From an uncultured Fodinibius sp. (lineage in GTDB: Bacteria > Bacteroidota > Rhodothermia > Balneolales > Balneolaceae): a stretch of 64,000 nt of DNA. Below, piece after piece: positions 4,946-52,311 of the stretch (positions are counted from its first letter, which is position 1; the number at the start of each line of letters is the position of its first letter). The position numbers and the translations under genes were made by a program. The stretch is taken from the NCBI GenBank assembly GCA_913056455.1, contig CAJXMJ010000006.1, positions 1 to 64,000 on the forward strand, given 5' to 3'. The notes under the pieces are model-generated. The model was not told the origin of the DNA. It saw only the letters and a list, made by a program, of their open reading frames with translations, and searched no databases.

Positions 4946-5710
4946 TTGATAAAAATAAACCAAATATTACAGAAGTGGCCTCAGGGCACTGTTATAACCA
5001 CTGACTGGTTAAAGAAACAGGGGGTCTCCAGACAATCAGTTAATAACTATAAAAATAGTGGGTGGTTCGAGCGAATAGGCCGAGGCGCATATAAAAGGAA
5101 AGGAGAAAACATATCGTGGGCTGGAGGCTTATATGCGTTGCAGAAGCTTCAAGGTATTCCGGTCCACGTGGGAGGCAAGACCTCCTTAGAGATGCAAGGG
5201 TATGGGCAATATATCAAAATCTCTTTCTTAGATCGGGTAATATTATGGAAGAACCCTGAGGTAAGACTTTCAGCATGGTTTAAAAATTGTGATGAATGGA
5301 AGGATAAATTAGAAATACGTTCAGCCACGCTGTTTCCTAAAGGAGTTGGTGCTCTTTCTGAGGCAAGAATAAGACAGGTAGAAGTTCAGATATCATCCGC
5401 TGAAAGAGCGATATTGGAATATCTGTATGATGTACCAAAGCGAGAAGATTTTGATAGGGTAAATAACATTATGGGTAGACTTGCTTCATTGCGTCCAAAA
5501 GTATTACAGCAATTACTTGAAGCTTGTAATTCGGTGCGAGTGAAGAGGTTGTTTATGTATATGGCCGAGTATCATGATCATAGTTGGTTTCATAGATTAG
5601 ATCCTTCAAAAATTAATTTTGGAAAAGGGAAACGGGAAATAGTGAAAGGCGGTAAGCTGAATAAGAACTATATGATTGTAGTGCCGGAACTTCGGAAGGA
5701 AGACGGATGA
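4946..5710 (+). CDS. abiEi: AbiEi-type antitoxin / transcriptional regulator, orphan
   Basis: The 254-residue protein starts at a TTG. It has an N-terminal winged-helix region (GTVITTDWLKKQGVSRQSVNNYKNSGWFERIGRGAYKR split over residues 14-50) and the AbiEi_1-type middle section (LYALQKLQG..VHVGGKTSLEMQGYG), then the family's C-terminal domain. In type IV toxin-antitoxin systems AbiEi represses the operon and neutralises the nucleotidyltransferase AbiEii. Here the downstream toxin is destroyed (next entry), so it stands alone. Its stop overlaps an ATG in the usual ATGA arrangement, showing the toxin was once translationally coupled. Confidence 0.85.
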   Translation: MIKINQILQKWPQGTVITTDWLKKQGVSRQSVNNYKNSGWFERIGRGAYKRKGENISWAGGLYALQKLQGIPVHVGGKTSLEMQGYGQYIKISFLDRVILWKNPEVRLSAWFKNCDEWKDKLEIRSATLFPKGVGALSEARIRQVEVQISSAERAILEYLYDVPKREDFDRVNNIMGRLASLRPKVLQQLLEACNSVRVKRLFMYMAEYHDHSWFHRLDPSKINFGKGKREIVKGGKLNKNYMIVVPELRKEDG

Positions 5711-5800
5711 TTAAAGAAAAAAGCTAAAAAAAGAGCAAAGAATCGGGTCAAATATTTAGCCGATGATTATGTGTCATTTCGGGAAAAGGGGATACTGTAG
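5707..5800 (+). pseudogene. remnant of abiEii toxin gene
   Basis: The ATG at 5707 overlaps the abiEi stop and reads only six codons (MIKEKS) before TAA. One frame over, bases 5726-5800 read KKRAKNRVKYLADDYVSFREKGIL and stop, a plausible fragment of a coupled toxin. The body of a roughly 300-codon gene is missing, so this is an internal deletion plus frameshift. The call rests mainly on position and coupling; the fragment is too short to identify by itself. Confidence 0.55.
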
Positions 5801-5980
5801 TCAGATAAGGCTGAAAAGGTAAGAGACTCCTTCTTTTTTAGATTAAGATTTAGAGTTTATTTCTGTTATCCTATTTCTCAACTTTTTAAAGCTCCCGATT
5901 TGCATACTCTACATATCTTTTCGTATATACTTCTTTTGATCATTTACTTAAAGCAAAATAAATAACCAAGACATATAACT

Positions 5981-6172
5981 ATGGATGAAAGCACAGCTAG
6001 CCTATTCAATAAAATGAAACAAGAGTGGGAAAAATTGGAAGAAAACCACGAAGACTTCGATCAGAAGGATAATAAAGCTGCTGGTCGTAGAGCCAGGAAG
6101 GCTGCCAATAACTTGAAGAAGTTGTTGACTCCCTACAAGAAAGCTTCTGTAGACGAAGCCAAAGAAATTTAG
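5981..6172 (+). CDS. histone H1-like (Hc1 family) DNA-binding protein
   Basis: The 63-residue protein is highly charged, with an N-terminal helix (LFNKMKQEWEKLEENHEDFD) followed by the family signature NKAAGRRARKAANNLKKLL. This pattern is typical of the short histone-H1-like proteins of Bacteroidota and chlamydial Hc1 relatives, which bind and condense DNA. It is monocistronic, ends at a strong terminator, and is AT-rich like its surroundings. Confidence 0.8.
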   Translation: MDESTASLFNKMKQEWEKLEENHEDFDQKDNKAAGRRARKAANNLKKLLTPYKKASVDEAKEI

Positions 6173-6197
6173 GGAGCAGGTATAGTAAGAGTTAGGC

Positions 6198-6232
6198 AAG
6201 GGGATATGGATTATTCCGTATCCCCTTTTTTG
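6198..6232 (+). terminator. terminator after the H1-like gene
   Basis: The stem AAGGGGATA / TATCCCCTT with an inner GGA/TCC pairing is followed by TTTTTTG. It starts 25 bases after the H1-like stop. Confidence 0.9.
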
Positions 6233-6522
6233 TTATTTAAAAAGGAATTGACGAAGAAAGTACGAGCTCAGCATTATTAATTTAAAGAGATAGCAGAAAG
6301 TTGGGAGCCGGTGACGAATTCTATGGTTGCTGTAAGTTAGTCCCGAAGAGATATACAGCTTATTTGGAAAATGAACTATTTAACAAGCTGCTGAGTAGAA
6401 GGATTTTGATTTGTGTCATACGCACAATCGGTGCAATTTTACCTTCAGGGTAGTTTTGTTGTACCCTCAGCGTATCCTTAGATATTTTCTGGCTCTTTAA
6501 TAGAGGTATATTTATCAAAACA
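6233..6522. other. intergenic stretch without a gene
   Basis: No open frame of interest is seen between the H1-like terminator and the tRNA-scar terminator. The sequence is AT-rich with no recognisable repeats. Confidence 0.5.
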
Positions 6523-6563
6523 AAAAAGCCTCTAACTACTTATAATATAAGTCAGAGGCTTAG
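6523..6563 (-). terminator. terminator of the disrupted tRNA-Arg locus
   Basis: Read on the minus strand, AAGCCTCTGACTTATA pairs with TATAAGTAGTTAGAGGCTT and runs into TTTTTTG. It sits a few bases after the 3' end of the tRNA fragment and is best explained as that gene's native terminator. Confidence 0.8.
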
Positions 6564-6572
6564 TAGAGAGTA

Positions 6573-6617
6573 CGCCTGAGAGGATTCGAACCCCTAACCT
6601 CCTGATCCGTAATCTAT
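6573..6617 (-). tRNA. 3' half of tRNA-Arg(ACG), 5' half missing: attachment-site scar
   Basis: On the minus strand the sequence reads through an anticodon loop TTACGGA and a 3' anticodon-stem strand TCAGG. It continues to a T-arm GGGGTTCGAATCCTC and an acceptor 3' strand CAGGCGT with discriminator A. No CCA is encoded. The bases on the 5' side of the loop do not form the required CCTGA stem strand, and no D-arm or 5' acceptor strand follows. The break falls in the anticodon stem-loop, a classic crossover point for tyrosine integrases. The original terminator is still downstream, so this is the host end of the gene, with the 5' half displaced. Confidence 0.75.
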
Positions 6618-6662
6618 GCGATATATTCCTGTGCGTGAAATGGGCCGCGATTTTGGGATTCC

Positions 6663-6684
6663 ATGTAGTACTATATGTAGTACC
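6663..6684. repeat. tandem ATGTAGTAC repeat beside the tRNA scar
   Basis: ATGTAGTAC occurs at 6663-6671 and 6675-6683, about 46 bases into what would be the inserted side of the tRNA scar. Short direct repeats at this distance resemble integrase arm-type sites. The function is inferred from position only. Confidence 0.4.
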
Positions 6685-6852
6685 GAAAGGGAATAGAGGG
6701 AAACCGTTTCCCGAAAACTATTGGATAAAAATCTGTTCACTTACTATTAGAAATAAGTGAACATTTCTTCTTTTGACTAATATCCATATTTGGGACGGGT
6801 AATAACCAGTATATGAATAGAGTTTTTTGAATTTGAACGTATTTGTTTCAAA

Positions 6853-6881
6853 CTTGATTGTTTAGTTGTTGACGAATCAAG
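6853..6881. promoter_or_regulatory. dyad in front of the tetR gene
   Basis: Perfect 7-bp arms CTTGATT and AATCAAG flank a 15-base spacer, ending 15 bases before the regulator's ATG. This is a candidate autoregulatory operator. Confidence 0.4.
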
Positions 6882-6896
6882 TAATCTATTAACGTT

Positions 6897-7478
6897 ATGC
6901 CACGAAAAAAAGAATATGATCCAAGCGAAGTCCTTCAAAAAGCGATGTATGTTTTTTGGCAAAATGGATATCGCTCTACTTCGCTTCGCATGTTAGAAAA
7001 GGAGCTGGGAATCAATCAATTTTCAATTTATTCCAGCTTTCAAAACAAGCATAATCTTTTTGTAGAAGTGCTGAAGAAGTATCGCGAACACATGCGTGAG
7101 GGAATTGTTCAAATCCTCATAAATTCAGAAGGAGATCTTAAAGATATTGAGCATTTTTATAAAGCCTTTATTGATGCTGTCCAAAACGGAGAGTCACCCA
7201 ATGGATGCCTTGTTGCAAATACCGCCGCCGAGATTGGATCATCAGATAGCCAAATACATGAAGCACTTAAAGCATATTTTGGGATGATGGAAGAGGCCTT
7301 TTATGAACTCTTGAGAAAAAGTAAGGCTAAGGGACAGTTGGACGAGGATATCGATCCGCGTGAAAAGGCAAGGTATCTCGTAACTTGTACCGAGGGGTTG
7401 TCCCTTTCTTCCAAGGTCATGGATGAGTCTGATCTCCATTCATTTATTTCATCTGTGTTAGCTTCATTGCAACGCTAA
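6897..7478 (+). CDS. TetR/AcrR family transcriptional regulator
   Basis: The 193-residue protein has the TetR N-terminal helix-turn-helix at about residues 9-52 (EVLQKAMYVFWQNGYRSTSLRMLEKELGI, then NQFSIYSSFQNKHNLF). The helical ligand domain carries the C-terminal pattern CLVANTAAEIG of the YezE/NemR-like subgroup. It most likely represses the AhpD-like gene that starts 108 bases downstream, where two similar palindromes lie in the gap. Subgroup members often sense electrophiles or thiol-reactive compounds; the ligand here is unknown. Confidence 0.9.
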   Translation: MPRKKEYDPSEVLQKAMYVFWQNGYRSTSLRMLEKELGINQFSIYSSFQNKHNLFVEVLKKYREHMREGIVQILINSEGDLKDIEHFYKAFIDAVQNGESPNGCLVANTAAEIGSSDSQIHEALKAYFGMMEEAFYELLRKSKAKGQLDEDIDPREKARYLVTCTEGLSLSSKVMDESDLHSFISSVLASLQR

Positions 7479-12116: not shown

Positions 12117-12153
12117 GATAGGGGAAGGCTGGAAATGTCTTCCCCTATTTTTA
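12117..12153. terminator. bidirectional terminator between convergent genes
   Basis: ATAGGGGAAG and CTTCCCCTAT form a 10-bp stem with an 11-base loop followed by TTTTATT. It separates DoxX (plus strand) from the end of the seven-gene minus-strand operon. Confidence 0.85.
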
Positions 12154-12834
12154 TTGGTTTGCTGTCAACTTCGCGGCTAACTGTGGCAAATTCGGTTCAA
12201 CATAGTGTGGGTCCGGTGCCAAGGGATACAACTGTTGCCCCGGCCGGTTCAGAAAAGCTGCTTTCATTCCTGCCGACATAGCTCCCGCGACATCCCAACC
12301 GTGAGCAGCAATAAAAAGGCATTCTTCAGGTACCGTCTGCATCTGCCGTGCGGCCCATCGATAGACATGCCGTTCGGGCTTATACAATCCAATGTCCTCG
12401 ACGCTAAACTGTTGTTCAAAATAGGTGCCAATGCCGGCATTATTCAGCTGCTGTTCCATCCCACTGCGTGGAGAATTGGTAAGGGCTGCTAATCGGTATC
12501 CGTGATCTCTTAACTTTCCAAGTGCTTTGGGAACTTCAGAATGAGGCGGCGTAGTGCGAATTGGTTGCAATACTTCCCGAGCAGATGATAGATTCATAGC
12601 AATGTCCCGCTGCTTGGCCAGCATCTGAAGTGTAGCGGCTCCGATATCTCCAAAATTCTGGTATTCATCAGTGGCGTTTGCAACCAGCGAATAATGAAGC
12701 ATCATCTCAAACCAGAGTGACACGACTTCATCACCGCCCTCCAGAGCCTGGGCTACAGAATTCCGGACCTCGGTTAGATCAAGTAGCGTTTCATTAACGT
12801 CAAAAAATAGAACTTTTTTGTTGTAAGTGTTCAT
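12151..12834 (-). CDS. haloacid dehalogenase type II-like HAD hydrolase
   Basis: The 227-residue protein has the HAD motif I LFFDVNETLLDL (nucleophile Asp12), motif II LAALTNSP, the conserved Lys in DIGLYKPERHVYRWAA, and motif IV-like AHGWDVAGAMSAGM. This layout matches (S)-2-haloacid dehalogenases and related phosphatases; substrate cannot be read from sequence. It is the last gene of the minus-strand operon, 15 bases after the metallophosphoesterase, so a phosphatase role in that operon is as likely as dehalogenation. Confidence 0.88.
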   Translation of the reverse strand: MNTYNKKVLFFDVNETLLDLTEVRNSVAQALEGGDEVVSLWFEMMLHYSLVANATDEYQNFGDIGAATLQMLAKQRDIAMNLSSAREVLQPIRTTPPHSEVPKALGKLRDHGYRLAALTNSPRSGMEQQLNNAGIGTYFEQQFSVEDIGLYKPERHVYRWAARQMQTVPEECLFIAAHGWDVAGAMSAGMKAAFLNRPGQQLYPLAPDPHYVEPNLPQLAAKLTANQ

Positions 12835-12849
12835 AAGAGGTTCACTCTA

Positions 12850-13995
12850 TCAGTTAGCGTTGAGATACCTATGAAAAATGATATTTCCCTTGTTGTCCCA
12901 AATTTCTATGCTCTTACCTCTATTTTTGTAGTAGCGAACAGCCATGAATCCTTTAGTCCGAGATGTAAAAGCGTTTGCAAGGTTTTTCTTAACATAAGAA
13001 GTTCTTGAAGCTGAACCGCTGACTAAAAAATACTGGTTTGTATTCTTTGACTGATGAGGAATAAACTGAAGACTGTGTTCGTGGCCAGAAGCATAGATGA
13101 GGCCGTCTTTACGTTCAAAGCTTTTCAGGAGTCCATCTTTTAAATCATTGTAGTTTGCGACATCCTGATGGTATCCCCAAGTATTACGATAGGCAACATA
13201 CAATGAGCCCAAAACAGGTGGCAAAAAATGAGTTTGAACGGGGAAGTTTCCTCCATGTCGTCCATAAGAAAATAATGGATGGTGAGCAGTAACAATAACT
13301 TCATCATCGTTATGAGCACGAATTATCTTTTCTACATCAGCAATAATCTTTTCTTTTTGCTTTGTTTCACTTGAAATACCTTTAGAAAGTGGTTTGTCGT
13401 GTGGATGCAGCCACCATTGCGTATCCAGTACGACCAATTGAATGTTGAAGTTCTTTGCTGAATCTTTTATTGATTTGTGTAATGAAATAGAAGCTGGACC
13501 CGGATATCCACTGTCGGGTAGGAAGGTATTACCCCTTTGAAGGTAGTTTTCGATATAGCGCTCTTGCCGCTGTATTTGGTTTAGTCCCTTTCGCTTTGAA
13601 GAATGCCAGTCGTGATTGCCGGGGATAAAGATGATGCGGCCAGGATAATCCTCTACGGTTTCTAGTTGAGCCCTTAGACGGCGTTCGGCTCGCTTTCGGG
13701 AACGCCGCCCCTCGGCCGGTAAACCGCTGGGGTAGATGTTATCACCAAGGAAAATTACGGCACTTTGCTTACCGCTCTTATCTAGTTGCGATTTGAGGAT
13801 TTGCAAGGTTTGTTCTCGGGGATTCAGGGAAGATTCTCCGGTATCTCCAATTAAGAATACTGAATAGATAGGTTCTGAGTCCGGTGTCACAGATGAGGCC
13901 GTTACCCCAGCACTTGTAGATGGATAGGTAGCCGTGTTGGCACAACCCAATGTAGCAACTACCATGGCAAGGAGCAGAAAGAATCTAGTACGCAT
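12850..13995 (-). CDS. lipoprotein metallophosphoesterase
   Basis: A lipoprotein signal peptide (LLLAMVVATLGC) opens the 381-residue protein. The calcineurin-like motifs follow in order: LIGDTGESS, FLGDNIYPSG, IPGNHDWH, VTAHHPLFSYG and ASGHEHSLQ. These supply the two-metal site, so hydrolysis of a phosphate ester in the periplasm or at the outer membrane is expected. It lies 23 bases after the cNMP-binding gene and upstream of a HAD hydrolase. Its presence beside nucleotide-transporter-like proteins and a kinase-like lipoprotein is what makes the cluster interesting. Confidence 0.9.
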   Translation of the reverse strand: MRTRFFLLLAMVVATLGCANTATYPSTSAGVTASSVTPDSEPIYSVFLIGDTGESSLNPREQTLQILKSQLDKSGKQSAVIFLGDNIYPSGLPAEGRRSRKRAERRLRAQLETVEDYPGRIIFIPGNHDWHSSKRKGLNQIQRQERYIENYLQRGNTFLPDSGYPGPASISLHKSIKDSAKNFNIQLVVLDTQWWLHPHDKPLSKGISSETKQKEKIIADVEKIIRAHNDDEVIVTAHHPLFSYGRHGGNFPVQTHFLPPVLGSLYVAYRNTWGYHQDVANYNDLKDGLLKSFERKDGLIYASGHEHSLQFIPHQSKNTNQYFLVSGSASRTSYVKKNLANAFTSRTKGFMAVRYYKNRGKSIEIWDNKGNIIFHRYLNAN

Positions 13996-14018
13996 ATAGG
14001 ATGGGTATTTATTTTAAC

Positions 14019-14450
14019 CTAAACCACAGCATCGGAAAGTTTAGTTAGTTTACGGATTCGTTTCACAAAGTAGGTGAGCAGTCCCTGACTCATTTGTACA
14101 CGATCTTCCAAAAGATCGTAGAAATCGATTCTGTCAATAACAAGAAAATGCGATTCTTCTTTACAGATGGCAGATACTAGTCGTTCCTCACCGTCAAAAA
14201 ATCCCCAGACTCCGATGGCTTTTGATTCTGTGAGCTCTTTGCGTAGCATGCCGTTACGAAGCAATTGGACGTTGCCATCTATTAAAAGGTACATCGACTG
14301 GGAGGGGTCTCCCTCTTCAAAAAGAATGTCATCAGTGTCGGCGGTAAAACTTCTAGTGATACCTGCCAGATGAGCCAGTTGCTCAGAGGGAACATCTGCA
14401 AACAATTCAATTCCCTGCAGGAAAATTACCCGTTCAATAGTTGTTTCCAT
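14019..14450 (-). CDS. cyclic nucleotide-binding domain protein
   Basis: The 143-residue protein is essentially one CNB beta-roll: LFADVPSEQLAHLAGI, DDILFEEGDPSQSMYLLIDGNVQLL, then a phosphate-cassette region ESKAIGVWGFFDGEERLVSA. There is no DNA-binding domain. The usual phosphate-binding Arg motif is weak, so ligand binding is uncertain. It begins 6 bases after the HEAT-fused NTT gene. CNB domains are known to occur fused to or beside bacterial NTT proteins, so it is probably a regulatory subunit. Confidence 0.85.
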   Translation of the reverse strand: METTIERVIFLQGIELFADVPSEQLAHLAGITRSFTADTDDILFEEGDPSQSMYLLIDGNVQLLRNGMLRKELTESKAIGVWGFFDGEERLVSAICKEESHFLVIDRIDFYDLLEDRVQMSQGLLTYFVKRIRKLTKLSDAVV

Positions 14451-14456
14451 AGTGAT

Positions 14457-17210
14457 CTAGTTCGATAGTTTGGTATTTCGTTTAATAACGAGCTCGGCCG
14501 TTTCTTTAATCAGCTTGTCGGACGATGTTGCAGCTTCTTTTACTTTTGACTGTAAATGAGTTGGGCAGTGAGGCGACACACTGTAAATAGCACAGATCTG
14601 TAGCCAGTGATCTTCCCCGTTAATAAGCTGAAGTAACCCTTCATCATATTGTTGTTCAGAGATTTGAAATAGTTCTTGGCCAACGTTTAATTTTTCTTGC
14701 TCTTCTCGATTATCGACAATTGGAAATAGGTACCTGCGATCTTCCTCAGTTAATACATTGTCTAAAAATTCAATAGCTGCCGATTGCTTATCGGAGGAAA
14801 TACTTTGAAGAGCCAGATAAGTGCCATACATATCTCCGGGGTCGTAAATCAGCCCCAATAAACGGAATATACGTTCTGTGCTTTGTCCCATTTTTTCATC
14901 CAGAGCTTTCAGTAAAATTTTGTTTGGATGATGCGGAGGCTGAAGCAGCTTCATCGCGAGTAGCTCAAAAAAGTTGTTGGCTTCACTTTTAAAGGTCCTC
15001 CGTACTTTGTCGGTGTTAATATTGATGGAAGGTTGCTCTCTTAACAGCTTATTAAGCGCTTTGATAACATGATAACGAAGATCCGGATCTTGGACTTCAA
15101 TCATTTTCAAAAGTTGATTAGCCGTAGTTTGGCTGGGTAAGTGAGAGAAAATACCGGGAATACTCTTGCGAACTTCCTTGGAAAGTGTAGCATCAAAAAA
15201 ACGATCTTTGTATAAGATCAGGTAATCGGTACCATAAGAAGCGAGCGATTTTCTGATTTCAATTTTAAATTCAGTATTTCCCAACTTTTCAAGTAGTATT
15301 GGAATGAAACGGTCATTTTGCTGTCTTCCCATACTTTCAATTGACTTTCGTATCACAGAGGGGTGACCATCATTGAGCAGTTGGGAAAGGTATTTCCGAG
15401 ATATTTGATCATCTTCAATATAACCCAGCGCATCGGCAATCTGGGTTTTAATAACGATTGCATCTTTACCATCCTTATTAAGTAGTTCTTCAAAAAAGTC
15501 CATATCCACCAAGTCCGTTGCCGACCCACCGTGCTTACTGGCACAACCGAGGGCTGCTGATTTTAATTTGTAATCATTATGTATCAAATAGGATTTGATA
15601 ACACTGGTGGGATCTTCTTTTGAATGTTGGCAGAGGTAATAGATCGTTTCGAGCCGAATATCAGGATCTTCATCTTTCAGTAATTCCTTTATTTCTTCCG
15701 TGAGATTCAGACTCTCTACATCCTGTAGTAGTTTTAATGCTTTTAGTTTTATCTCCTTGTTGGAGTGATATAGAAGCTGTCGAAGATCATCGGCTAATGA
15801 TTCTATGTCGCTTTCATCCAACAAAAATAGCGTATGTAAAACCTCAGAGTCTCTAGAACTGTGTAATGATTCCTGAATAATCGAAAAGATAGTAGGCTCA
15901 TTAAGGTTAAGAGCCATGCTACCCGTGCCGATAAGCTGTTTCTGAACTGAACTTCGAAACTTTTCCACATACCCTCTTTTGACTCGAATAGCGAGTAGAA
16001 TCCATCCGATCAACAGTGCAATAACAACAAAGGTTAGCCAATATACCGACCAGCTGAGTACAACTATAAATCCCAGTAAAAGCAGTCCTCCCAGTCCGCG
16101 GGAAAACCGATCCACAAAAATATCGATAAAGATTTTAGTCTGCTCCTTGGTATGCTGTGAAAGAGGCAAAAAAAGCAGTTCACGACCGGTTTTATCAATA
16201 GAATAACGGGTGGCGCCGTCAAATCCATTAAGTATCACAACTGAGGCCAGTACGGGTTCTATGGCCATTAGAACAGCTCCGATCATCATCCCCACGGGTC
16301 GGGATAAAACAGCTCCCGAAAGCCCCATTTTTTTGATGATTTGTGAGGAGAGTAGGACCTGTACTGCCAGTGAGGCCAAACTTAGCCCGGCATAAAAGGT
16401 ACCCATAAAAGCCGTCAATCCGGCTGTATCCGGATAGGCATCAAACGCCAGGGCTTTAAACTGGTAATCGGTAAACGTGGTCGTGATCATAGTCAGACCA
16501 ATAATTACAGTCAGGGAAAGTTGATAGGGCGAAGAAACAATCTTTTGAGCTGCTTTTATTGTGGATGTATTGGTCGTTTGGTTACGCTTGGGAGTAGTAT
16601 TACCCTTTTTTGTTGCTTGCCGGGGAATAAACAAAAGCATGATAATTCCAACAACGAGCAAAAAGACACAAATATATAACAGATTTTCAGTGGATAGGTT
16701 TAGCAGGGAAACAATAAGACTGGAAGCTTCACTGCCTGCAATAGCCCCCAGGATGGCTCCCAGCGTCAAAAAGGAAAAGATGCGTTTAGACTGAGATGGC
16801 TTAAATATGGCATTAGCTAACAACCAGAATAGTGAGATTACCAGTATTCCAAAGATTCCAACCCAGATATAAAATCCCATAAAAATCCACTCCATCTGGT
16901 ATTGGAACAGCCATCGAATAAACAGGATATTTGCTGCCAGTAGCCCTAGAGTCCATATGAGAACGGTTCGAACAGAGTAACGCTTCATTACGCTAGTGAT
17001 TAACTGTGTAACGGGCATAGAAACAACTGCCAGCAACATATAGACGTAAGGGAGGTCACCAGGACCATTTTCAGTTAGAAAGAGGCTGTCGCGGGCCGGT
17101 TTCAAAAAGTACAGGATCACCATTAGAATAAAATGGAGGCCGAACATTAGCAGTACCGATCGCCATTCATCCCTTCGGATATCATAAAATATGGAGATAA
17201 ATTTTTTCAC
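14457..17210 (-). CDS. NTT-family (ATP/ADP translocase-like) membrane protein with C-terminal HEAT-like repeats
   Basis: The 917-residue protein has about 12 membrane helices in residues 1-420. It starts with YFLKPARDSLFLTENGPGDL, the pattern of the NTT (Tlc) first loop. A long cytoplasmic HEAT-like repeat region follows, about 440-900, with repeats such as DLRQLLYHSNKEIKLKALKLL and DEDPDIRLETIYYLC. NTTs of intracellular bacteria exchange ATP and ADP; free-living bacteria carry relatives of unproven function. The second NTT gene precedes it by 41 bases. The fused repeats suggest docking of a partner such as the CNB protein next door. Confidence 0.85.
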   Translation of the reverse strand: MKKFISIFYDIRRDEWRSVLLMFGLHFILMVILYFLKPARDSLFLTENGPGDLPYVYMLLAVVSMPVTQLITSVMKRYSVRTVLIWTLGLLAANILFIRWLFQYQMEWIFMGFYIWVGIFGILVISLFWLLANAIFKPSQSKRIFSFLTLGAILGAIAGSEASSLIVSLLNLSTENLLYICVFLLVVGIIMLLFIPRQATKKGNTTPKRNQTTNTSTIKAAQKIVSSPYQLSLTVIIGLTMITTTFTDYQFKALAFDAYPDTAGLTAFMGTFYAGLSLASLAVQVLLSSQIIKKMGLSGAVLSRPVGMMIGAVLMAIEPVLASVVILNGFDGATRYSIDKTGRELLFLPLSQHTKEQTKIFIDIFVDRFSRGLGGLLLLGFIVVLSWSVYWLTFVVIALLIGWILLAIRVKRGYVEKFRSSVQKQLIGTGSMALNLNEPTIFSIIQESLHSSRDSEVLHTLFLLDESDIESLADDLRQLLYHSNKEIKLKALKLLQDVESLNLTEEIKELLKDEDPDIRLETIYYLCQHSKEDPTSVIKSYLIHNDYKLKSAALGCASKHGGSATDLVDMDFFEELLNKDGKDAIVIKTQIADALGYIEDDQISRKYLSQLLNDGHPSVIRKSIESMGRQQNDRFIPILLEKLGNTEFKIEIRKSLASYGTDYLILYKDRFFDATLSKEVRKSIPGIFSHLPSQTTANQLLKMIEVQDPDLRYHVIKALNKLLREQPSININTDKVRRTFKSEANNFFELLAMKLLQPPHHPNKILLKALDEKMGQSTERIFRLLGLIYDPGDMYGTYLALQSISSDKQSAAIEFLDNVLTEEDRRYLFPIVDNREEQEKLNVGQELFQISEQQYDEGLLQLINGEDHWLQICAIYSVSPHCPTHLQSKVKEAATSSDKLIKETAELVIKRNTKLSN

Positions 17211-17251
17211 TGGCAGTTATTCAGTTTTTAATATCTGATAATTGTGGCTTT

Positions 17252-18592
17252 TTACAACGCTATCTCTTCGATATTTGCTTTATTTTCAAACTCATGTCCG
17301 ACATATCGTACTGCTAATATCCAGAATACCAGAATAATTAGGCAGGCAATCGAAAGCCAGCGCACATGTTCCAATCCTACCCAGGCGGCCACCCCAAGGT
17401 TAAGTACAACGGCTAGTACTTTGGCGAAGCGCTGTACGAACATATCAATAAAGGCTTTGGCCTTGTACTTCACATCCTGTTCCGTAGGTGTATAGAGTGC
17501 CTCTTTGGCCGATTGATTGATAGAATAGTTCAGGCTGTTATCACTTGCAGACATCATTGTTACAAACAGCAGGCTTGGAACTACCAGGAAGCCAACTGAT
17601 CCGAGCGTGATGACGATAGGCAAAAATAGCAATGCAATACCTACCCCGTACCGCTTCATAACAAAACTGGTCAAAAATAGCTGCACGACGAGGGAGATAA
17701 TGCTTGTAATTTGTCCTACGAAGCCAAAGTACGCATCCTTCTCAAGGTCACCACTGATGCCGGAAGCGATGGTAGCGGAAAGCTGGAAATCCACAATATT
17801 TGAAACCATCTCGTAAAGTGCGATGATACCCACGATAGCCAGCAGGTACTTTGATTTAAAGACGATATTTGCTCCCTCGAAAATGGCATTACAGCGTTTG
17901 CCTTCTGCGCATGCTGTTTGTGTATGTTCTTTTTGGGTTTGGGGGGTGCGGCTGTTCACTATATATCCAATAACAATCATCACAGCCAAAGGAATAAGAC
18001 AAAGGTAAAGAAGGGTGGGTCGCCCCAATTCATTCACATATCCTACTACTACCGTTGAACCCACAATACCCCCAATAATGCCTCCCAGTCCAACTATACC
18101 ATATGTTCGTTTGGCCTGATCAGAGGAAAAAATATCGTTTGAATAAGCCCAGAAAAAGGTAACCATCGCAGAATTAAACATATCTCCAAGTACGTAAAAC
18201 GACCAGCTTGTTGCGGGACCGGGATTGCTCATCAGGCTGGCAAAGAGAATAAAAAGACCCGCGAAAAAAAGATTAAGCGTCAGATTCAAATGCTGGCGCT
18301 TCAGTTTTCGGGAAAGTAGCGTGAACATTACCACAATTGCATACACCACAACCATATTCACAACTTTGGCAAGTTGTTCTACTTCGGCCCCGGCAAAACT
18401 TGTACCCAATAAGTGAAGTGGGTTGTTTTCGTAAAAATTAACTAACAGCCCGCGCTTGAGCGGTTTTAAAACCCAAAAGGTGGCAATCACCATAAAGAAA
18501 AAGAGGGACATCATGATGACATTGGGCCACTCCTTCTTTTTAATATCAAAGAAATTTTTACGGATATTATTGATAATTCCTTTTGCAGCCAT
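17252..18592 (-). CDS. NTT-family (ATP/ADP translocase-like) membrane protein
   Basis: The 446-residue protein has about 12 membrane helices without extra domains. The opening loop FWVLKPLKRGLLVNFYENN parallels the first loop of the larger NTT protein downstream. KKEWPNVIMMSLFFFMVIATF precedes it. Both are recognisable as NTP/NDP exchange transporter-type (PF03219-like) proteins. Inner-membrane location is expected. Two different NTTs in tandem suggest a heterodimer or opposing transport directions. It starts 12 bases after the kinase-like lipoprotein gene. Confidence 0.85.
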   Translation of the reverse strand: MAAKGIINNIRKNFFDIKKKEWPNVIMMSLFFFMVIATFWVLKPLKRGLLVNFYENNPLHLLGTSFAGAEVEQLAKVVNMVVVYAIVVMFTLLSRKLKRQHLNLTLNLFFAGLFILFASLMSNPGPATSWSFYVLGDMFNSAMVTFFWAYSNDIFSSDQAKRTYGIVGLGGIIGGIVGSTVVVGYVNELGRPTLLYLCLIPLAVMIVIGYIVNSRTPQTQKEHTQTACAEGKRCNAIFEGANIVFKSKYLLAIVGIIALYEMVSNIVDFQLSATIASGISGDLEKDAYFGFVGQITSIISLVVQLFLTSFVMKRYGVGIALLFLPIVITLGSVGFLVVPSLLFVTMMSASDNSLNYSINQSAKEALYTPTEQDVKYKAKAFIDMFVQRFAKVLAVVLNLGVAAWVGLEHVRWLSIACLIILVFWILAVRYVGHEFENKANIEEIAL

Positions 18593-18604
18593 AATGATAC
18601 CCGC

Positions 18605-20320
18605 TTATTCTTCTCGTTGGATCCCCACGACTCTTGGACCTGATGATTCGAGGGCCACATATACCCGGGTAAACTTTTCAGATATATCGGCAGCGGTTCT
18701 TCGAGTAAAGATTTCAAACTTCAGAACAACAGGTTTCCCGTTAATATTAGATGCAGAGATATCTGAACTATCTACTGATATTAATGGGTTTTCTGATCTT
18801 CGATCTTGCAAAATATTCTTTCGATCCACCAAAGAAACAGTATAATCGTAGTGGGTGTTGCTCGGTTTAAAGAGGGATCCCTCAATCCCCAGATCGCTGA
18901 ATGAAAGGACGATATCTCTACTACTTTTTTTCACCTCAAACTTGTCAATGGGATTGATTCGGCTAAACCAGTAGCGCCCGATCTTGTCTCTACGTTTTAT
19001 CAATACTTCAGTAAGATACGCTTCGGCTTTTGGATTAGTAATTTCACCGGTCTCTACAATGGCTCTTATATCTTTATCGCTAAAACTCATGACCTGTTTG
19101 GCGCCCCAAAAAGCATCGCGGAGGGTCATGTTTTCATAGGCTGGCAATGGATGGGCAGATACCCATTGACCCGGCTTGAATACTTCGGCACGGAAATAGC
19201 CTACGGATGGATGGGCAATGTGCGCCTGTGTATCAACCATTTCCCACGAGTTTACATTAAATCCTAGGGAGATTGCATTTATAGCCATATATCGGGGATC
19301 GATAAGGTAGGCCTGCCCGTAGATAGGTTCGTGGATACTGGCTCCGTTGGCCCCGAGTGTATTGCCAAAGTCCTGCACAAAATGTTTAATATAGCCTCCG
19401 TCATCGTATACGGCCATGGTGTTTGCGTCACGACGATCAGTATCATTCAGCCAGGAGCTGATTACACGCATGCCTCGGATTTCTCGTCGGTGTTCATGGT
19501 CTACTCGGTCGTTGGGATCGTCGCTGCGTGTGCCTTCGAAGGCCCACTGTCCAACGGGAATGCCATCTACAAATTTGCTGGCCAGGGCTCGAATCTTACC
19601 CTGCTCATTTCGGGGTTTATTTGCAATGATACTGCGGTAGTCTGCCATAGTCATTTGACGCTCTTTCCCCTTTTCTTCCACCATGACATCTTCACCGACT
19701 GTTACTTGGTCGGGATAAAAATAAGTTATAGTGGACTCAGGTACGTTATAGCCGGCACCGTAGAATATTTTGGTGCCTATGACCTCGGCCGAAGTCGTAA
19801 GTTCAGGATATTGCGGGCCGTCGAATTTAATGAGAAATCGATTTCCTCTGGCATCTTCGATAAAAAAACCGGGATTAGCTCCTTCCAGCTTAGCGGAGAA
19901 AATCGTCCAGGGGCCCGAAGTATCCGGCTTAACTGTATTGGGACCCCGAGCCAGCTCTTCCGGAGTCATAGGATTGTAGTAGTGGCGGTAGTTGTACCAG
20001 CTCGATTCGGGAGGTTCATCTAGGCGGTTCACATTGTCAGCCTGTTTAGCATCGGCAACTCCTATTACACGGCCGGCAGTACGAAAAATGTTGTTCAGAT
20101 CGAGCGGTTTTTCGAGCTGGTGGAAGACGGTATTGTCAATACGATCCCAATACTGATACGATTCATTTTCCGGCGGTCGAGGAATGTCTGTCGTGTCCGG
20201 ATCAAATGTCTTAATCGGATCCAGGGTGTAGGGTTTGGTACTGCTACAACCCGAAATAGCAGTTATCGCTACTAGTGAGACAAGTAACCATCTGCCGATA
20301 TGTTTTTGTACTGCAGTCAC
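18605..20320 (-). CDS. lipoprotein with HipA/PI3K-like kinase-fold motifs
   Basis: The signal peptide ends in the lipobox ISGC (Cys25). From residue 155 the sequence follows the kinase layout of HipA-like enzymes. GNRFLIKFDG places Lys165 as the ATP-anchoring lysine, then comes an AE..GT..FYGAGYNVPE helix. SSWLNDTDRRDAN places Asp295 and Asn300 as the catalytic loop, and QDFGNTLG places Asp317 as the metal-binding DFG. A roughly 120-residue beta-rich C-terminal domain follows. I have not seen a named family. If active, it would phosphorylate something outside the cytoplasm, needing exported nucleotide; the NTT genes directly downstream could supply it. A pseudokinase is the alternative. Confidence 0.65.
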   Translation of the reverse strand: MTAVQKHIGRWLLVSLVAITAISGCSSTKPYTLDPIKTFDPDTTDIPRPPENESYQYWDRIDNTVFHQLEKPLDLNNIFRTAGRVIGVADAKQADNVNRLDEPPESSWYNYRHYYNPMTPEELARGPNTVKPDTSGPWTIFSAKLEGANPGFFIEDARGNRFLIKFDGPQYPELTTSAEVIGTKIFYGAGYNVPESTITYFYPDQVTVGEDVMVEEKGKERQMTMADYRSIIANKPRNEQGKIRALASKFVDGIPVGQWAFEGTRSDDPNDRVDHEHRREIRGMRVISSWLNDTDRRDANTMAVYDDGGYIKHFVQDFGNTLGANGASIHEPIYGQAYLIDPRYMAINAISLGFNVNSWEMVDTQAHIAHPSVGYFRAEVFKPGQWVSAHPLPAYENMTLRDAFWGAKQVMSFSDKDIRAIVETGEITNPKAEAYLTEVLIKRRDKIGRYWFSRINPIDKFEVKKSSRDIVLSFSDLGIEGSLFKPSNTHYDYTVSLVDRKNILQDRRSENPLISVDSSDISASNINGKPVVLKFEIFTRRTAADISEKFTRVYVALESSGPRVVGIQREE

Positions 20321-20329
20321 TGGAATGAT

Positions 20330-21619
20330 CTAAAAATTTGGGTTGATATTAAGTATTACACGAGACGATTCTTTGCTGAAAGCAAATTCAGAGCGGAAGG
20401 AAAACCCCTTGGTGGAAATTAAATGAAATCCAAATCCATAACTTGTGTGAAAATCGTTAATTGAAATATCAGAGTACTTATTAAAAACTTGTCCTTCATC
20501 TACAAAAAAGACGATATCGGCAAAATTCCACATGGGATAGCGGTATTCCAGGGTAAGCAAAAGGGAGCCGTCGTCCCGAAAACGGTCAGAGGAAAATCCG
20601 CGCAAGTTGTATGAGCTTCCGAGACTGGGAGAATCGAAAAAGGGAATTTCTTTGTCTCCCAACGGGGCGGCCTTTTCCACACTTGTTTTGAATGCCAATC
20701 GTCTTGAGTTTGGCAGAAAAGGGAGCGGCAGAAATTGCTGCCACTCCAGATTATAGGTCAAATAGTGAAACTGATCGTTGGTCAAAGAGCGGTTCCACTG
20801 TAGCCCGGCAATGTACCGGGAACCCCGAAACGTTCTTGGCGTTCCTTTTACAAAATCAAAACGTAAGGTGCTCCCAAACGACAGCAAGCTGGTTGTGCCT
20901 CGGAGCTGTTGTGGGATAACCAGAAGGGGATCTTCCGCTATTGTTTTGTTGTTATTTATATCCATCTTCCAATACTGGCTGGCAAGGCTGATTTGCACTG
21001 AGGAAGAAATTGCGTTGCGATATTCTATCGCGCCCTCAAGCTCTTCTGTGGCGTAAAGTTGCTCGCTGGATATAGTTGAGCTGTTTCCGCCATATAATGA
21101 TTTCACCGGATCGTTGGAGTAGCTGGCATCAAGATTAAGCTGGCCGGTATTTGAGATAAAGGAGGGAATGGTGTATTCAAAATCGAAGTCGTTATATTCC
21201 TCAGATCCAAAAAGGGCTTCGACTCGTACTTTGTGATCGTATCGCAGAAATTGATTATGGTACAGCAGTAGCCCATATGCAACGCCTACATCGCCGCCCA
21301 GTTCAAATAGGGGGTACACACCATAGGGAGCTCGTTCTCCCTGTAGTAGTTCGGGCAGTTTCTTTTCAGCCCATTTTACACCCCACCCGATGGGACGCGT
21401 ACCCCAATGCAACAGGTAGGATGGGAAAGCCAGTATATGTTCTCCGACCTTTTTTTCTGAAGAGTAGGGTTCAGCCGTTACTCTATCTGGAGCATGATTG
21501 GTAGTATCGGATTTGCCAGCTATCGTAGATTGTGCTTGGACCTCTATAATCCCCAAGAATAATAGTATGCAAATGAGGTAGGCTGTTCTCTTAAGTGTAA
21601 TTAGTCTTAGATTTATCAA
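20330..21619 (-). CDS. BamA/TamA-type outer-membrane beta-barrel protein without POTRA domains
   Basis: A signal peptide (LICILLFLGIIEVQAQS) is followed by a short linker and a barrel of about 330 residues. The barrel ends in a terminal Phe and contains the Omp85 loop-6 pattern SSYNLRGFSSDRFRDDG, then FFVDEGQVF. It lacks room for POTRA domains, so it is a minimal surface-antigen D15-like barrel. As the first gene of the minus-strand operon, it could export or anchor the lipoproteins encoded behind it. The gap to the next gene is 9 bases. Confidence 0.85.
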   Translation of the reverse strand: MINLRLITLKRTAYLICILLFLGIIEVQAQSTIAGKSDTTNHAPDRVTAEPYSSEKKVGEHILAFPSYLLHWGTRPIGWGVKWAEKKLPELLQGERAPYGVYPLFELGGDVGVAYGLLLYHNQFLRYDHKVRVEALFGSEEYNDFDFEYTIPSFISNTGQLNLDASYSNDPVKSLYGGNSSTISSEQLYATEELEGAIEYRNAISSSVQISLASQYWKMDINNNKTIAEDPLLVIPQQLRGTTSLLSFGSTLRFDFVKGTPRTFRGSRYIAGLQWNRSLTNDQFHYLTYNLEWQQFLPLPFLPNSRRLAFKTSVEKAAPLGDKEIPFFDSPSLGSSYNLRGFSSDRFRDDGSLLLTLEYRYPMWNFADIVFFVDEGQVFNKYSDISINDFHTSYGFGFHLISTKGFSFRSEFAFSKESSRVILNINPNF

Positions 21620-21754: not shown

Positions 21755-23062
21755 CTAATTGTCGGATAGACTAAGCTGAACATTATTCGGAATTCCGGTC
21801 TCAATGGGATTCTCCGGATCATTGCACCACTCAAACCACCCACCGTCATAAACCGAGATCTTGGGCCAATCCATCAGCCAGGCATTCATAAAGGCTTCGC
21901 TTCCGCGCCAGCCAGTCCCGCAATAAAAAGCCACATGTTTGTCGGGGGTAATCCCGCCTTCTTTCCAGGCTGATGCAATTTCTTGGTACTCCCGCATCGT
22001 ATGATCAAAGTTGCGGTAGTTTTCCATATGGTAGGCGTCACTTCCGCAGTTACCAAAAATAGCCCCGGGAATTCGTCCTTTTCGTTCGATATAATGGTAG
22101 CCGCTGCGGTTACCGATAAACTCCTCCCAGCTTCGGATGCTTACCAGCTCTCCCTCATTAGATTTTAGCAGTTGCTTACCTTCAGAGGTATCTATCATGT
22201 ATTCGGGATGGGCAGGAATCGTTGTACCAAAATTGTCAGTGGGAGTGGGTTCTTGTTGATCTGTTGAGAGCTCATAGCCATCTGCCTCCCAGCTCGTAAT
22301 GCCGCCATTCAGTATCCTGATGTCCTCCACTCCCGCATACAGCATAATCGCTGTACACCGCAGTGCGCCAAGATGTCCGGCGCTTTTACCAGGAAACTTT
22401 TCTTCATCATATACAGGAGCGGAAAACCGCCCATAAATCACTACGGTTGTATCGTGACGAATGCCTAGCCCTTCCAGGGTTGCACGGAGCTCTTCGGGGG
22501 AGCGACGGTTCCAGGTTTCGGTCGACTCCAAGCTATTGGTATCCACCGGTATTGCACCGGGAATATGTCCATTGTGATAATCCCCGATATGGTCGTAGTG
22601 CGAATGGCAAATAACGTAGTCATCATTGTTGTATTGGGGCGGTTGCTGGCCCTCAATTAGCTGTTTTACCCACTGGGGATACACCAGGTGTTTGTATCGC
22701 GGCAATTGATCCATGGGAAGGTCTGGATTGCCGGCCCATTCATCCACAAAATGATTATAGGTCGAAACCTGCTCGTAGCCAAGCTCGTCTAATTTCTGGG
22801 CCATCTGAAAGTTTTCATCACTGTCGTACCCATATACTACTACAGGCTGTTTTCTGCTGATGTTTTTCTCCTCCAGCACCTCAATCCAGTCCATATACTG
22901 GGTCCACTGCAGGGGAAGGCTTTTTGCTTCGGGGATATGACCGCCCCGCTGCTCGTGTTTCAGTGTCCATCCATTATAAGCGGCAATGGGCCGAATATCG
23001 ATGAGGATAACATTGGTTTCTTCAAGCTTCGAAATAAGTTCTTGGGTAGATAATGTATTCAT
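21755..23062 (-). CDS. eanB: three-domain rhodanese, EanB-like sulfurtransferase
   Basis: The 435-residue protein has three rhodanese-like domains (about 5-120, 125-260 and 275-430). Only the last keeps a catalytic Cys (Cys381 in FYCGTGWRGSE). Length, multi-domain layout and a single catalytic Cys in the C-terminal domain resemble EanB, which moves persulfide sulfur onto hercynine to give ergothioneine in Chlorobium. The EgtD gene ends 5 bases before this one begins in the same direction, so the pair forms a complete two-step route. A plain thiosulfate sulfurtransferase is the alternative. Confidence 0.7.
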   Translation of the reverse strand: MNTLSTQELISKLEETNVILIDIRPIAAYNGWTLKHEQRGGHIPEAKSLPLQWTQYMDWIEVLEEKNISRKQPVVVYGYDSDENFQMAQKLDELGYEQVSTYNHFVDEWAGNPDLPMDQLPRYKHLVYPQWVKQLIEGQQPPQYNNDDYVICHSHYDHIGDYHNGHIPGAIPVDTNSLESTETWNRRSPEELRATLEGLGIRHDTTVVIYGRFSAPVYDEEKFPGKSAGHLGALRCTAIMLYAGVEDIRILNGGITSWEADGYELSTDQQEPTPTDNFGTTIPAHPEYMIDTSEGKQLLKSNEGELVSIRSWEEFIGNRSGYHYIERKGRIPGAIFGNCGSDAYHMENYRNFDHTMREYQEIASAWKEGGITPDKHVAFYCGTGWRGSEAFMNAWLMDWPKISVYDGGWFEWCNDPENPIETGIPNNVQLSLSDN

Positions 23063-23067
23063 GAATA

Positions 23068-24012
23068 TTATTTTTTCTGCAGGTATTGAAGTGAAAAATA
23101 ATCGTTGGTATCAGTCCATATCTTTTCCATCGAAAACCATTCGCTTACCAGGTTTTCAAATTCCGTAATATTATATTTGTAAGAGTTTTCGGTATGAATG
23201 GATTCTCCCTTCTCAAAGGAAAACACTTGTCCTTCAATTGTTACCGTTTGATTTAAGCTGGAAATTAAATGCATTTCTATGCGCCCTTTCTCCTCGTTGT
23301 AAAATGCTTTATGTCGAAAGTTGCTCAAATTAAAGTTGGCATCCAGCTTACGGTTGATATGCCGGAGTATATTCTTGTTGAATTGTGCCGTCACTCCCTG
23401 ACGGTCATTATAAGCGGCTTCCAATACGCTGATATCCTTTTTCAGGTCAACGCCCATAAGCATACGATCTCCGGAATCCAAAAGCGCGGAAAGGTTACCT
23501 AAAAACCCTTTGGCCTGTGGAGGTTCAAAATTCCCGATCGTAGAGCCCGGGTAAAAGAAAACGATGTTGTTATAGGCTTTTGAAATAGAAGGCAACTGAA
23601 AGGGCGTCGTATAATCAGTACAAACCGGATTGATCTGCAAATCGGGGTACTCCCTGTTGAGATTTTGGACGACCTTTGCCAAGTATTGCTCAGATATTTC
23701 TATTGGCACATACGAAGTGATACACGACAGGTGATCCAATAGTAGGCGCGTTTTCTTACTACTGCCGCTTCCCAGCTCAGCTAACATGATATCACTGCCA
23801 AGTGTACGTATAATATCGGGCATATTGTTTTGCATTATGGACATTTCAGTCCGGGTGGGATAGTACTCATCGAGCTCCGTGATCTCTTCAAAGAGTTGAG
23901 ACCCGCGTTGATCATAGAAATATTTGCTCGGCAGCGATTTTTGATCTTTTCTTAATCCCTCAATAACCTCCTCCAGCATTGTTGGAGAAGTTAACGTAAC
24001 CTGCTCATCCAT
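23068..24012 (-). CDS. egtD: L-histidine N-alpha-methyltransferase (EgtD/EanA)
   Basis: The 314-residue protein shows the EgtD signature: PSKYFYDQRGSQLFEEITELDEYYPTR split across residues 28-54, and the SAM site LAELGSGSSKKTRLLL (78-92). VFFYPGSTIGNFEP follows, with a C-terminal EMHLISSLNQTV. EgtD trimethylates histidine to hercynine, the precursor of ergothioneine. No EgtB or EgtC is visible; instead a multi-rhodanese gene follows, pointing to the oxygen-independent EanA/EanB type of pathway. Confidence 0.92.
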   Translation of the reverse strand: MDEQVTLTSPTMLEEVIEGLRKDQKSLPSKYFYDQRGSQLFEEITELDEYYPTRTEMSIMQNNMPDIIRTLGSDIMLAELGSGSSKKTRLLLDHLSCITSYVPIEISEQYLAKVVQNLNREYPDLQINPVCTDYTTPFQLPSISKAYNNIVFFYPGSTIGNFEPPQAKGFLGNLSALLDSGDRMLMGVDLKKDISVLEAAYNDRQGVTAQFNKNILRHINRKLDANFNLSNFRHKAFYNEEKGRIEMHLISSLNQTVTIEGQVFSFEKGESIHTENSYKYNITEFENLVSEWFSMEKIWTDTNDYFSLQYLQKK

Positions 24013-51986: not shown

Positions 51987-51987
51987 A

Positions 51988-52311
51988 TTAATCTCGTTTC
52001 GTTCGTTTGATTGCGATTCCAATTCCAATGAGGGCGATGGCCCCAATAGCAAGGAGAGCTGGTTTGGGTAAGGCCCCTTTTGTTGGCACTTGTAGGGATT
52101 GTTGGGTAATGCCGAGCCTATTGAACAATTCTTCATCAGCTATACCGCTGGTCGGGAGTCCCAGTTGTTGTTGGGCCCCTTTGACGGCTGCCTGCGTTTC
52201 TGGGCCAAAGATGCCGTCGACGCCATATTCGGGAAGCCCGATACCAAGGGCCTTCAGTGCTGATTGCAGGTGCATAACCTGGGGACCTTTGTCGCCTATG
52301 CTAAGAGTCAT
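51988..52311 (-). CDS. virus-like element: peptidoglycan-binding protein with C-terminal membrane anchor
   Basis: The 107-residue protein is one PG_binding_1 domain (GDKGPQVMHLQSALKALG, then GVDGIFGPETQAAVKGAQQQ) followed by a proline linker and a membrane helix (PALLAIGAIALIGIGIAI) with a basic end. Tail-anchored cell-wall binding suits a virion membrane protein that holds the particle at the peptidoglycan. Confidence 0.88.
   Translation of the reverse strand: MTLSIGDKGPQVMHLQSALKALGIGLPEYGVDGIFGPETQAAVKGAQQQLGLPTSGIADEELFNRLGITQQSLQVPTKGALPKPALLAIGAIALIGIGIAIKRTKRD

Follow-up and report, generated by a model that had tools for sequence, protein, structure and literature searches.

A kinase-fold lipoprotein paired with a POTRA-less Omp85 barrel and linked to ATP/ADP translocases: a possible system for phosphorylation in the periplasm

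A seven-gene locus in an uncultured Fodinibius

We analysed a 64,000-nucleotide stretch of DNA from an uncultured Fodinibius sp. (contig CAJXMJ010000006.1, positions 1 to 64,000; hereafter the window). It carries a row of seven genes encoding, among others, an outer-membrane barrel, a lipoprotein with a kinase-like fold and two proteins of the ATP/ADP translocase (NTT) family. An earlier note on this DNA had proposed that the row could phosphorylate targets outside the cytoplasm. Our analysis points to a two-gene core, consisting of a POTRA-less Omp85-type barrel (OMP) and a lipid-anchored kinase-fold protein on the periplasmic side (KIN), to which NTT genes are linked.

ORF (open reading frame) calling confirmed seven minus-strand genes between 12151 and 21619, in the order that the note had given. 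The intergenic gaps in the direction of transcription are 9, 12, 41, 6, 23 and 15 bases, within the 6-41 bases that it had reported (Table 1). Families were found by Pfam search for six of the seven proteins, KIN being the exception, and those of the barrel, the two NTT proteins, the cyclic-nucleotide-binding protein and the metallophosphoesterase agree with the note's assignments. By motif reading, KIN (...AISGC) and the metallophosphoesterase (...ATLGC) both begin with lipobox-type signal peptides, as expected of the lipoproteins they were said to be, and KIN should lie on the periplasmic side of a membrane. The terminator that the note placed at the end of the operon did not hold up. The strong hairpin there has its T-run on the plus strand, and no T-run follows it on the operon's strand; as an intrinsic terminator it would therefore serve the DoxX-like gene on the opposite strand, and we rejected it as the terminator of the operon.

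Table 1. Genes and hairpin of the seven-gene locus, in order of transcription (window positions)
Feature	Position	Strand	Basis
OMP, POTRA-less Omp85-type outer-membrane barrel, 429 aa, TTG start, first gene of the operon	20330..21619	-	PF01103, E 3e-15
KIN, kinase-fold lipoprotein, 571 aa, GTG start, lipobox Cys25	18605..20320	-	ORF, domain model, fold search
NTT, stand-alone protein of the ATP/ADP translocase family, 446 aa	17252..18592	-	PF03219, E 9e-28
NTT-HEAT, NTT domain and HEAT repeats in one protein, 917 aa, GTG start	14457..17210	-	PF03219, E 8.5e-21; HEAT_2
cNBD, small cyclic-nucleotide-binding-domain protein, 143 aa	14019..14450	-	PF00027, E 1.3e-12
MPE, lipoprotein metallophosphoesterase, calcineurin-type, 381 aa, optional member of the module	12850..13995	-	PF00149, E 1.3e-9
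HAD, haloacid-dehalogenase-type-II family protein, 227 aa	12151..12834	-	TIGR01428, 167 bits
Hairpin with T-run, terminator-like for the convergent DoxX-like gene	12117..12149	+	sequence

Searches of Pfam and NCBIfam at E<=1 gave no family for the sequence of KIN, and its profile matched no PDB kinase, which sets KIN apart as a separate sequence family. The curated sequence models of Fam20, CotH and HipA were likewise unmatched, so that KIN falls outside these as named families. Its predicted structure tells more. Seventy-five relatives went into a model of residues 40-458, which reached a pLDDT of 93.9 and a pTM of 0.93, and the order of its secondary-structure elements fits a two-lobed kinase fold. 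All 50 neighbours listed by a VIA-align search of the PDB were kinases or kinase-fold proteins. The best was CtkA (3akk; Z 14.7, root-mean-square deviation 3.7, 232 residues aligned), and the others included Fam20C1 (5yh0, Z 13.2), CotH (5jd9, Z 12.4), PI4KII-alpha (5eut, Z 12.4), the Golgi casein kinase (4kqa, Z 11.9) and HipT entries at around Z 11. Foldseek also placed 4kqa first (E 1.3e-4, probability 0.99). The domain model replaces an earlier, weak full-length model (pLDDT 59), for which VIA returned Fam20C and CtkA over residues 111-456 and matches to an FnIII-like C-terminus filled most of the listing. The kinase domain spans about residues 129-458, and the FnIII-like domain, as judged from the weaker full-length model, about 456-560. 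The domain model thus confidently predicts an atypical protein-kinase-like fold of the CtkA/Fam20/CotH/HipA/PI4K group. The window protein carries K165, D295, N300 and D317 at the places where the fold calls for such residues, and by motif we take them to be the nucleotide-binding lysine, the catalytic aspartate and two metal-binding residues. With these neighbours and this catalytic set, the kinase fold that the note had suspected in the lipoprotein stands.

In the 429-residue OMP, PF01103 covers residues 129-414 and no other Pfam domain was found at E<=1. Judged by its domains, the protein fits the noNterm class of Omp85, in which a barrel stands without POTRA or any other N-terminal domain.

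Both NTT proteins score well above the PF03219 cut-off of 21 bits (97.8 for the stand-alone NTT, 74.8 for NTT-HEAT), and their profiles match the solved NTT structures (9j3j/9j3n) at E 6e-23 or better and 3e-22 or better, respectively. The stand-alone NTT has K76, D137, D268 and K391 at the positions of K155, E245, E385 and K527 in AtNTT1, among which E385 is presumably the fourth key position. The pairing of K76 with K155 comes from an ungapped comparison around the GAE motif, as the N-terminal part is poorly aligned and a weak printed alignment puts the equivalence one residue off. This K/D/D/K set, which relative to AtNTT1 has Glu-to-Asp exchanges at two positions, occurred without variation in all 17 stand-alone NTTs that were aligned. 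In AtNTT1, ADP binding depends on K155, ATP binding on K527 and translocation on E245 (PMC3306366, in part). By its residues the stand-alone NTT of the operon looks like a true ATP/ADP exchanger, whereas NTT-HEAT does not.

Spread of the barrel-KIN pair and its linkage to NTT genes

KIN was present in 9 of 58 relatives and in 14 of 395 genomes of the phylum sample, and when 84,980 species genomes were scanned with a KIN alignment, 70 loci were found. By their labels, these fall in Balneolota, Rhodothermota, KSB1/Calditrichota, Latescibacterota, Gemmatimonadota, Myxococcota and other deltaproteobacteria, Eisenbacteria, Krumholzibacteriia, Nitrospirota (Thermodesulfovibrionia) and Oligoflexia, about ten phyla in all. 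We joined the scan with the whole-genome loci of Balneolota/Rhodothermota and Myxococcota into a table of 104 KINs, from which duplicates (L051, L052, L058, L059, L060, L061, L064 and L066) and a fragment at a contig end (L009) were left out. A barrel gene lay on the same strand within 350 bases of KIN in 97 of the 104, degenerate and partial copies included, and four of the seven exceptions have under 1.3 kb of upstream sequence. The pairing is more than chance and recurs across these phyla. The closest full match to the window was a halophile metagenome-assembled genome (L056), in which barrel, KIN, NTT, NTT-HEAT, cNBD and phosphoesterase follow in the same order, with no HAD gene. Neither the pair, found from Balneolota to Myxococcota, nor the six-gene order is therefore confined to one strain.

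Several loci show variants of the pair. One genome carries two barrel-KIN pairs about 9 kb apart (L011:5656-19154), one with NTT-HEAT and MPE and the other with an NTT in two frames. In some Rhodothermia a second pair has lost the catalytic residues and has no NTT nearby (L046:7477-10673, L047, L048, L049, L050); in L046-L048 it stands near a large ORF that, by eye, begins like DNA polymerase III alpha. Two genes after KIN, L040 encodes a 742-aa protein (5180-7408) that by eye resembles a patatin-type outer-membrane protein. In L119, KIN and barrel share a contig from a 1.4-Mb bin that carries the label Nanoarchaeota; the contig is probably bacterial and misbinned.

With three incomplete rows set aside, 101 KINs were scored for the four catalytic residues: 84 were intact, 4 partial and 13 degenerate. 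Many Myxococcota members carry the pattern H-x-D-x-K-x-x-N ... D-F-G. All 13 degenerate KINs retain the adjoining barrel, which suggests another explanation of the pair. The barrel could be the centre of an outer-membrane assembly or export device, with KIN serving mainly as a structural or regulatory lipoprotein, as BamB does for BamA, and with catalysis secondary; the pair would then work without it. A role in membrane protein biogenesis has indeed been proposed for the noNterm Omp85 class (PMC4104836, in part). Such a device would leave unexplained why 84 of 101 KINs keep the whole catalytic set and why NTTs are far commoner in kinase-bearing genomes than in others, and the degenerate copies may be the pseudokinases that a kinase system can include, as other kinase families do. 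We regard this explanation as unlikely.

NTT genes are linked to the intact KINs. An NTT-domain gene lay within 5 kb of 44 of the 84 intact KINs, of none of the 4 partial and of none of the 13 degenerate copies (intact versus degenerate, Fisher p = 2e-4). Where both flanks were at least 4 kb, the counts were 36/57, 0/2 and 0/8. The search for co-occurrence that the earlier note had proposed thus recovers both the barrel-KIN pair and the nearby NTT genes. In Myxococcota and KSB1, a stand-alone NTT with AGED/SGED at the key positions is a frequent neighbour of KIN, at L068, L069, L079, L083 and L166-L176.

The association extends to whole genomes. Among the 58 relatives, NTTs were present in 9 of 9 with KIN and in 2 of 49 without. 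In the phylum sample they were found in 12/12 genomes with an intact KIN, 0/2 with only a degenerate one (G189, G343) and 14/381 with none (p = 4e-16); only two NTTs of stand-alone size occurred in the genomes without KIN, and both lack all four key residues. The KIN loci of the large scan led to 57 genomes, of which 51 have an NTT. The six others are three Eisenbacteria with a degenerate KIN (L115, L116 and L117, all the degenerate-KIN genomes among the 57), two with KIN fragments at contig ends (L119, L120) and a fragmentary metagenome-assembled genome with an intact KIN in which no NTT was found (L055). In 140 Myxococcota genomes, PF03219 matched in 11 of 14 with an intact KIN as against 30 of 122 without (p = 1e-4), a table that excludes two marginal KIN matches (G484, G549) and two genomes with only degenerate copies (G599, G530); a custom profile found an NTT-domain gene next to KIN in two of the three misses (G482, G560). 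On a quick tree of the 101 KINs, computed without the four catalytic columns, 14 changes of NTT adjacency were counted, which indicates recurrence in separate lineages and speaks for repeated recruitment or loss. As linkage, the association between KIN and NTT is well supported.

The same genes could instead serve nucleotide salvage, with the NTTs importing nucleotides or cofactors, the phosphoesterase trimming phosphates, KIN binding or modifying a nucleotide or small molecule, and nothing being exported. The characterised NTTs of intracellular bacteria import (PMC5381601, in part), the phosphoesterase is by its signal sequence a secreted lipoprotein, and NTT-HEAT and the lysine-free NTT types have no established substrate. 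Salvage fails, though, to explain why across about ten phyla the barrel has as its conserved partner a kinase fold with its full catalytic set, or why NTT genes are missing from the surroundings of degenerate KINs, and the barrel-KIN pair also occurs at loci with neither phosphoesterase nor NTT. We consider it quite unlikely.

The two hydrolase genes at the end of the operon are less widely kept. When neighbours within 5 kb of KIN were clustered, the groups, besides antisense frames, were only barrels, NTTs and small mixed clusters. A phosphoesterase cluster comprised five loci (L011, L013, L014, L056 and the window), and a conserved third partner for the NTT-less loci was sought in the same clusters and rejected. 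MPE could reverse a modification, but only locally, in few genomes. The HAD protein scores above the NCBIfam threshold of haloacid dehalogenase type II (167 bits against 125.4 for TIGR01428) and falls below those of the phosphatase equivalogs listed; its gene was not found near any other KIN locus examined. It is probably a passenger outside the conserved module, and on the curated cut-off and its lack of conservation beside KIN we rejected it as a resetting phosphatase. Of the note's suggestion that two phosphatases reset the target, the HAD half, confined to this genome, falls away, and the MPE half is weak.

A phage, plasmid or defence origin was considered and rejected: a search of plasmids gave no match to KIN, and a PADLOC scan of five module proteins gave only a weak HEAT match, to NTT-HEAT. 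Elsewhere in the window, just upstream of the operon and on its strand (21755-24012), are genes for a multi-rhodanese sulfurtransferase and for a histidine methyltransferase of the egtD type (ergothioneine pathway). A 2416-aa ORF at 43469-50719 on the minus strand contains RelA/SpoT, SNF2-related and helicase C-terminal domains, and upstream of it on the same strand is a KaiC/AAA-like ORF (50724-52136). The region from 38 to 56 kb has a higher G+C content, about 0.52, and by appearance is a possible mobile or defence island.

A possible supply of ATP to the periplasm

The reading that we think best, and to which we give slightly better than an even chance, is that of a kinase held at a POTRA-less Omp85 barrel, with ATP/ADP antiport as its supply. 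The stand-alone NTT, in the inner membrane, would swap cytoplasmic ATP for periplasmic ADP. In the usual view the periplasm contains no ATP; the gradient would therefore drive ATP out and ADP in, and the exchange would be thermodynamically downhill. With this ATP, KIN would phosphorylate a target located at the barrel or on its way past it, be it protein, glycan or lipid, and the ADP that it regenerates would return through the same antiport, so that no nucleotide is lost. The NTT-HEAT/cNBD pair might sense or gate the supply, or carry another nucleotide. At loci that have the lipoprotein phosphoesterase, this enzyme would take phosphate off. In its general form, the proposal is that in many diderms NTT antiporters export ATP and retrieve ADP while a barrel-held kinase-fold lipoprotein phosphorylates envelope or exported substrates; this is plausible, at a little under an even chance.

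An enzyme at the mouth of such a barrel has precedents. Some POTRA-less Omp85 barrels carry N-terminal enzyme domains, patatin or PF00149 (PMC4104836, in part), and a 1170-aa PF00149-Omp85 fusion is encoded directly after the six-gene operon of L056 (15485-18994). These fusions would also suit a kinase-fold enzyme that does not phosphorylate protein, such as an AMP-transferase, or a lipid or sugar kinase acting on an outer-membrane glycolipid. The barrel partner places KIN at the outer membrane, and PI4K and the lipid kinase MavQ are among its listed structural neighbours. The best structural matches, however, are the protein kinases CtkA, Fam20C and CotH, although substrate classes are not separated by this comparison, and we hold this alternative to be very unlikely.

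Several points weigh against a kinase fed by antiport. The Foldseek TM-scores of KIN are low (0.21-0.57), so that the fold call rests on VIA-align Z-scores and motifs, and the kinase superfamily also includes AMPylating enzymes and lipid or sugar kinases. The earlier note had both NTTs exporting nucleotide; the stand-alone protein keeps the residues for this, but NTT-HEAT lacks both nucleotide-binding lysines. The window protein has Y/G/D/R at the profile-aligned positions, and F, S, D and Q are the commonest there in other NTT-HEAT proteins. Both lysines are also missing from the AGED/SGED-type NTT, a third kind that stands beside KIN in Myxococcota, KSB1 and others. Some loci with an intact KIN have only lysine-free NTTs (e.g. 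L013, L014), and these the supply model does not explain.

The linkage has exceptions too. For 40 of the 84 intact KINs the 5 kb on either side contain no NTT, in some cases because the contig ends, and 21 of 57 still have none where both flanks reach at least 4 kb. Intact KINs of the Gemmatimonadota, Krumholzibacteria and Polyangia type are almost never near an NTT, their genomes encoding NTTs elsewhere. No NTT was found in the Myxococcota genome G590, or in the fragmentary metagenome-assembled genome G457, both with an intact KIN. The degenerate-only G599 does have NTTs; its sister case G530 does not. On the KIN tree the intact or degenerate state requires only 2 changes, so that the Fisher values overstate independence, and an independent-pairs test, with 1-2 pairs and no power, was not significant. 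As a natural experiment on catalysis the association is therefore only suggestive. Finally, the support is computational throughout, and the neighbour clusters yielded no substrate candidate.

Relation to known systems

No description of a set of barrel, kinase-fold lipoprotein and NTT was met in the literature searched, which was mostly open-access and had preprints outside its scope; the KIN family, its near-constant barrel partner and its coupling to NTTs are apparently undescribed. The note's statement that no system with this set is described holds to that extent. One part of the set is already known: Major et al. 2017 (PMC5381601, in part) described an NTT-HEAT gene followed by a cNBD gene, an arrangement that the two window genes match exactly, with a gap of 6 bases and with HEAT_2 and PF00027 domains. 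The part of that paper used here reports no kinase, barrel or lipoprotein neighbour and no tested function, and it states the role of NTTs in free-living bacteria as an open question. If our reading is true, it would explain what NTTs do in such bacteria.

The barrels closest to OMP are the noNterm and 'Metallo' subfamilies of Omp85 (PMC4104836, in part); OMP shares the barrel-only form without POTRA, and the PF00149-Omp85 fusion stands next to the operon in L056. For noNterm Omp85 the part of that source used here names no conserved partner, and its main text nowhere mentions a kinase, whereas here the partner is KIN; if the reading is true, POTRA-less Omp85 barrels would gain an enzymatic partner.

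In fold, KIN is closest to CtkA of Helicobacter pylori, with the HipT entries further off. KIN differs from CtkA, HipT and HipA in its lipobox signal, FnIII-like C-terminal domain and barrel partner; HipA and HipT are, by their PDB titles, toxin-antitoxin proteins. CotH shares with KIN a bacterial, Fam20-like kinase fold. We know of no barrel, lipobox or NTT partner for CotH. Its place of action also differs, being the Bacillus spore coat (PMC7821199, in part).

The proposed arrangement would work like that of Fam20C, the Golgi casein kinase. Fam20C shares with KIN an atypical kinase fold and, if KIN lies in the periplasm as its lipobox predicts, a place outside the cytosol; both would need ATP moved across a membrane. 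In the eukaryotic Golgi, the lumenal Fam20C kinase is supplied with imported ATP. KIN is about 8-10% identical to Fam20C, with no detectable sequence relationship, and is bacterial, barrel-paired and, by its lipobox, lipid-anchored. If true, a dedicated periplasmic ATP supply with its own kinase would make the periplasm a new compartment for bacterial phosphorylation, and the module would be a prokaryotic counterpart of phosphorylation in the Golgi lumen.

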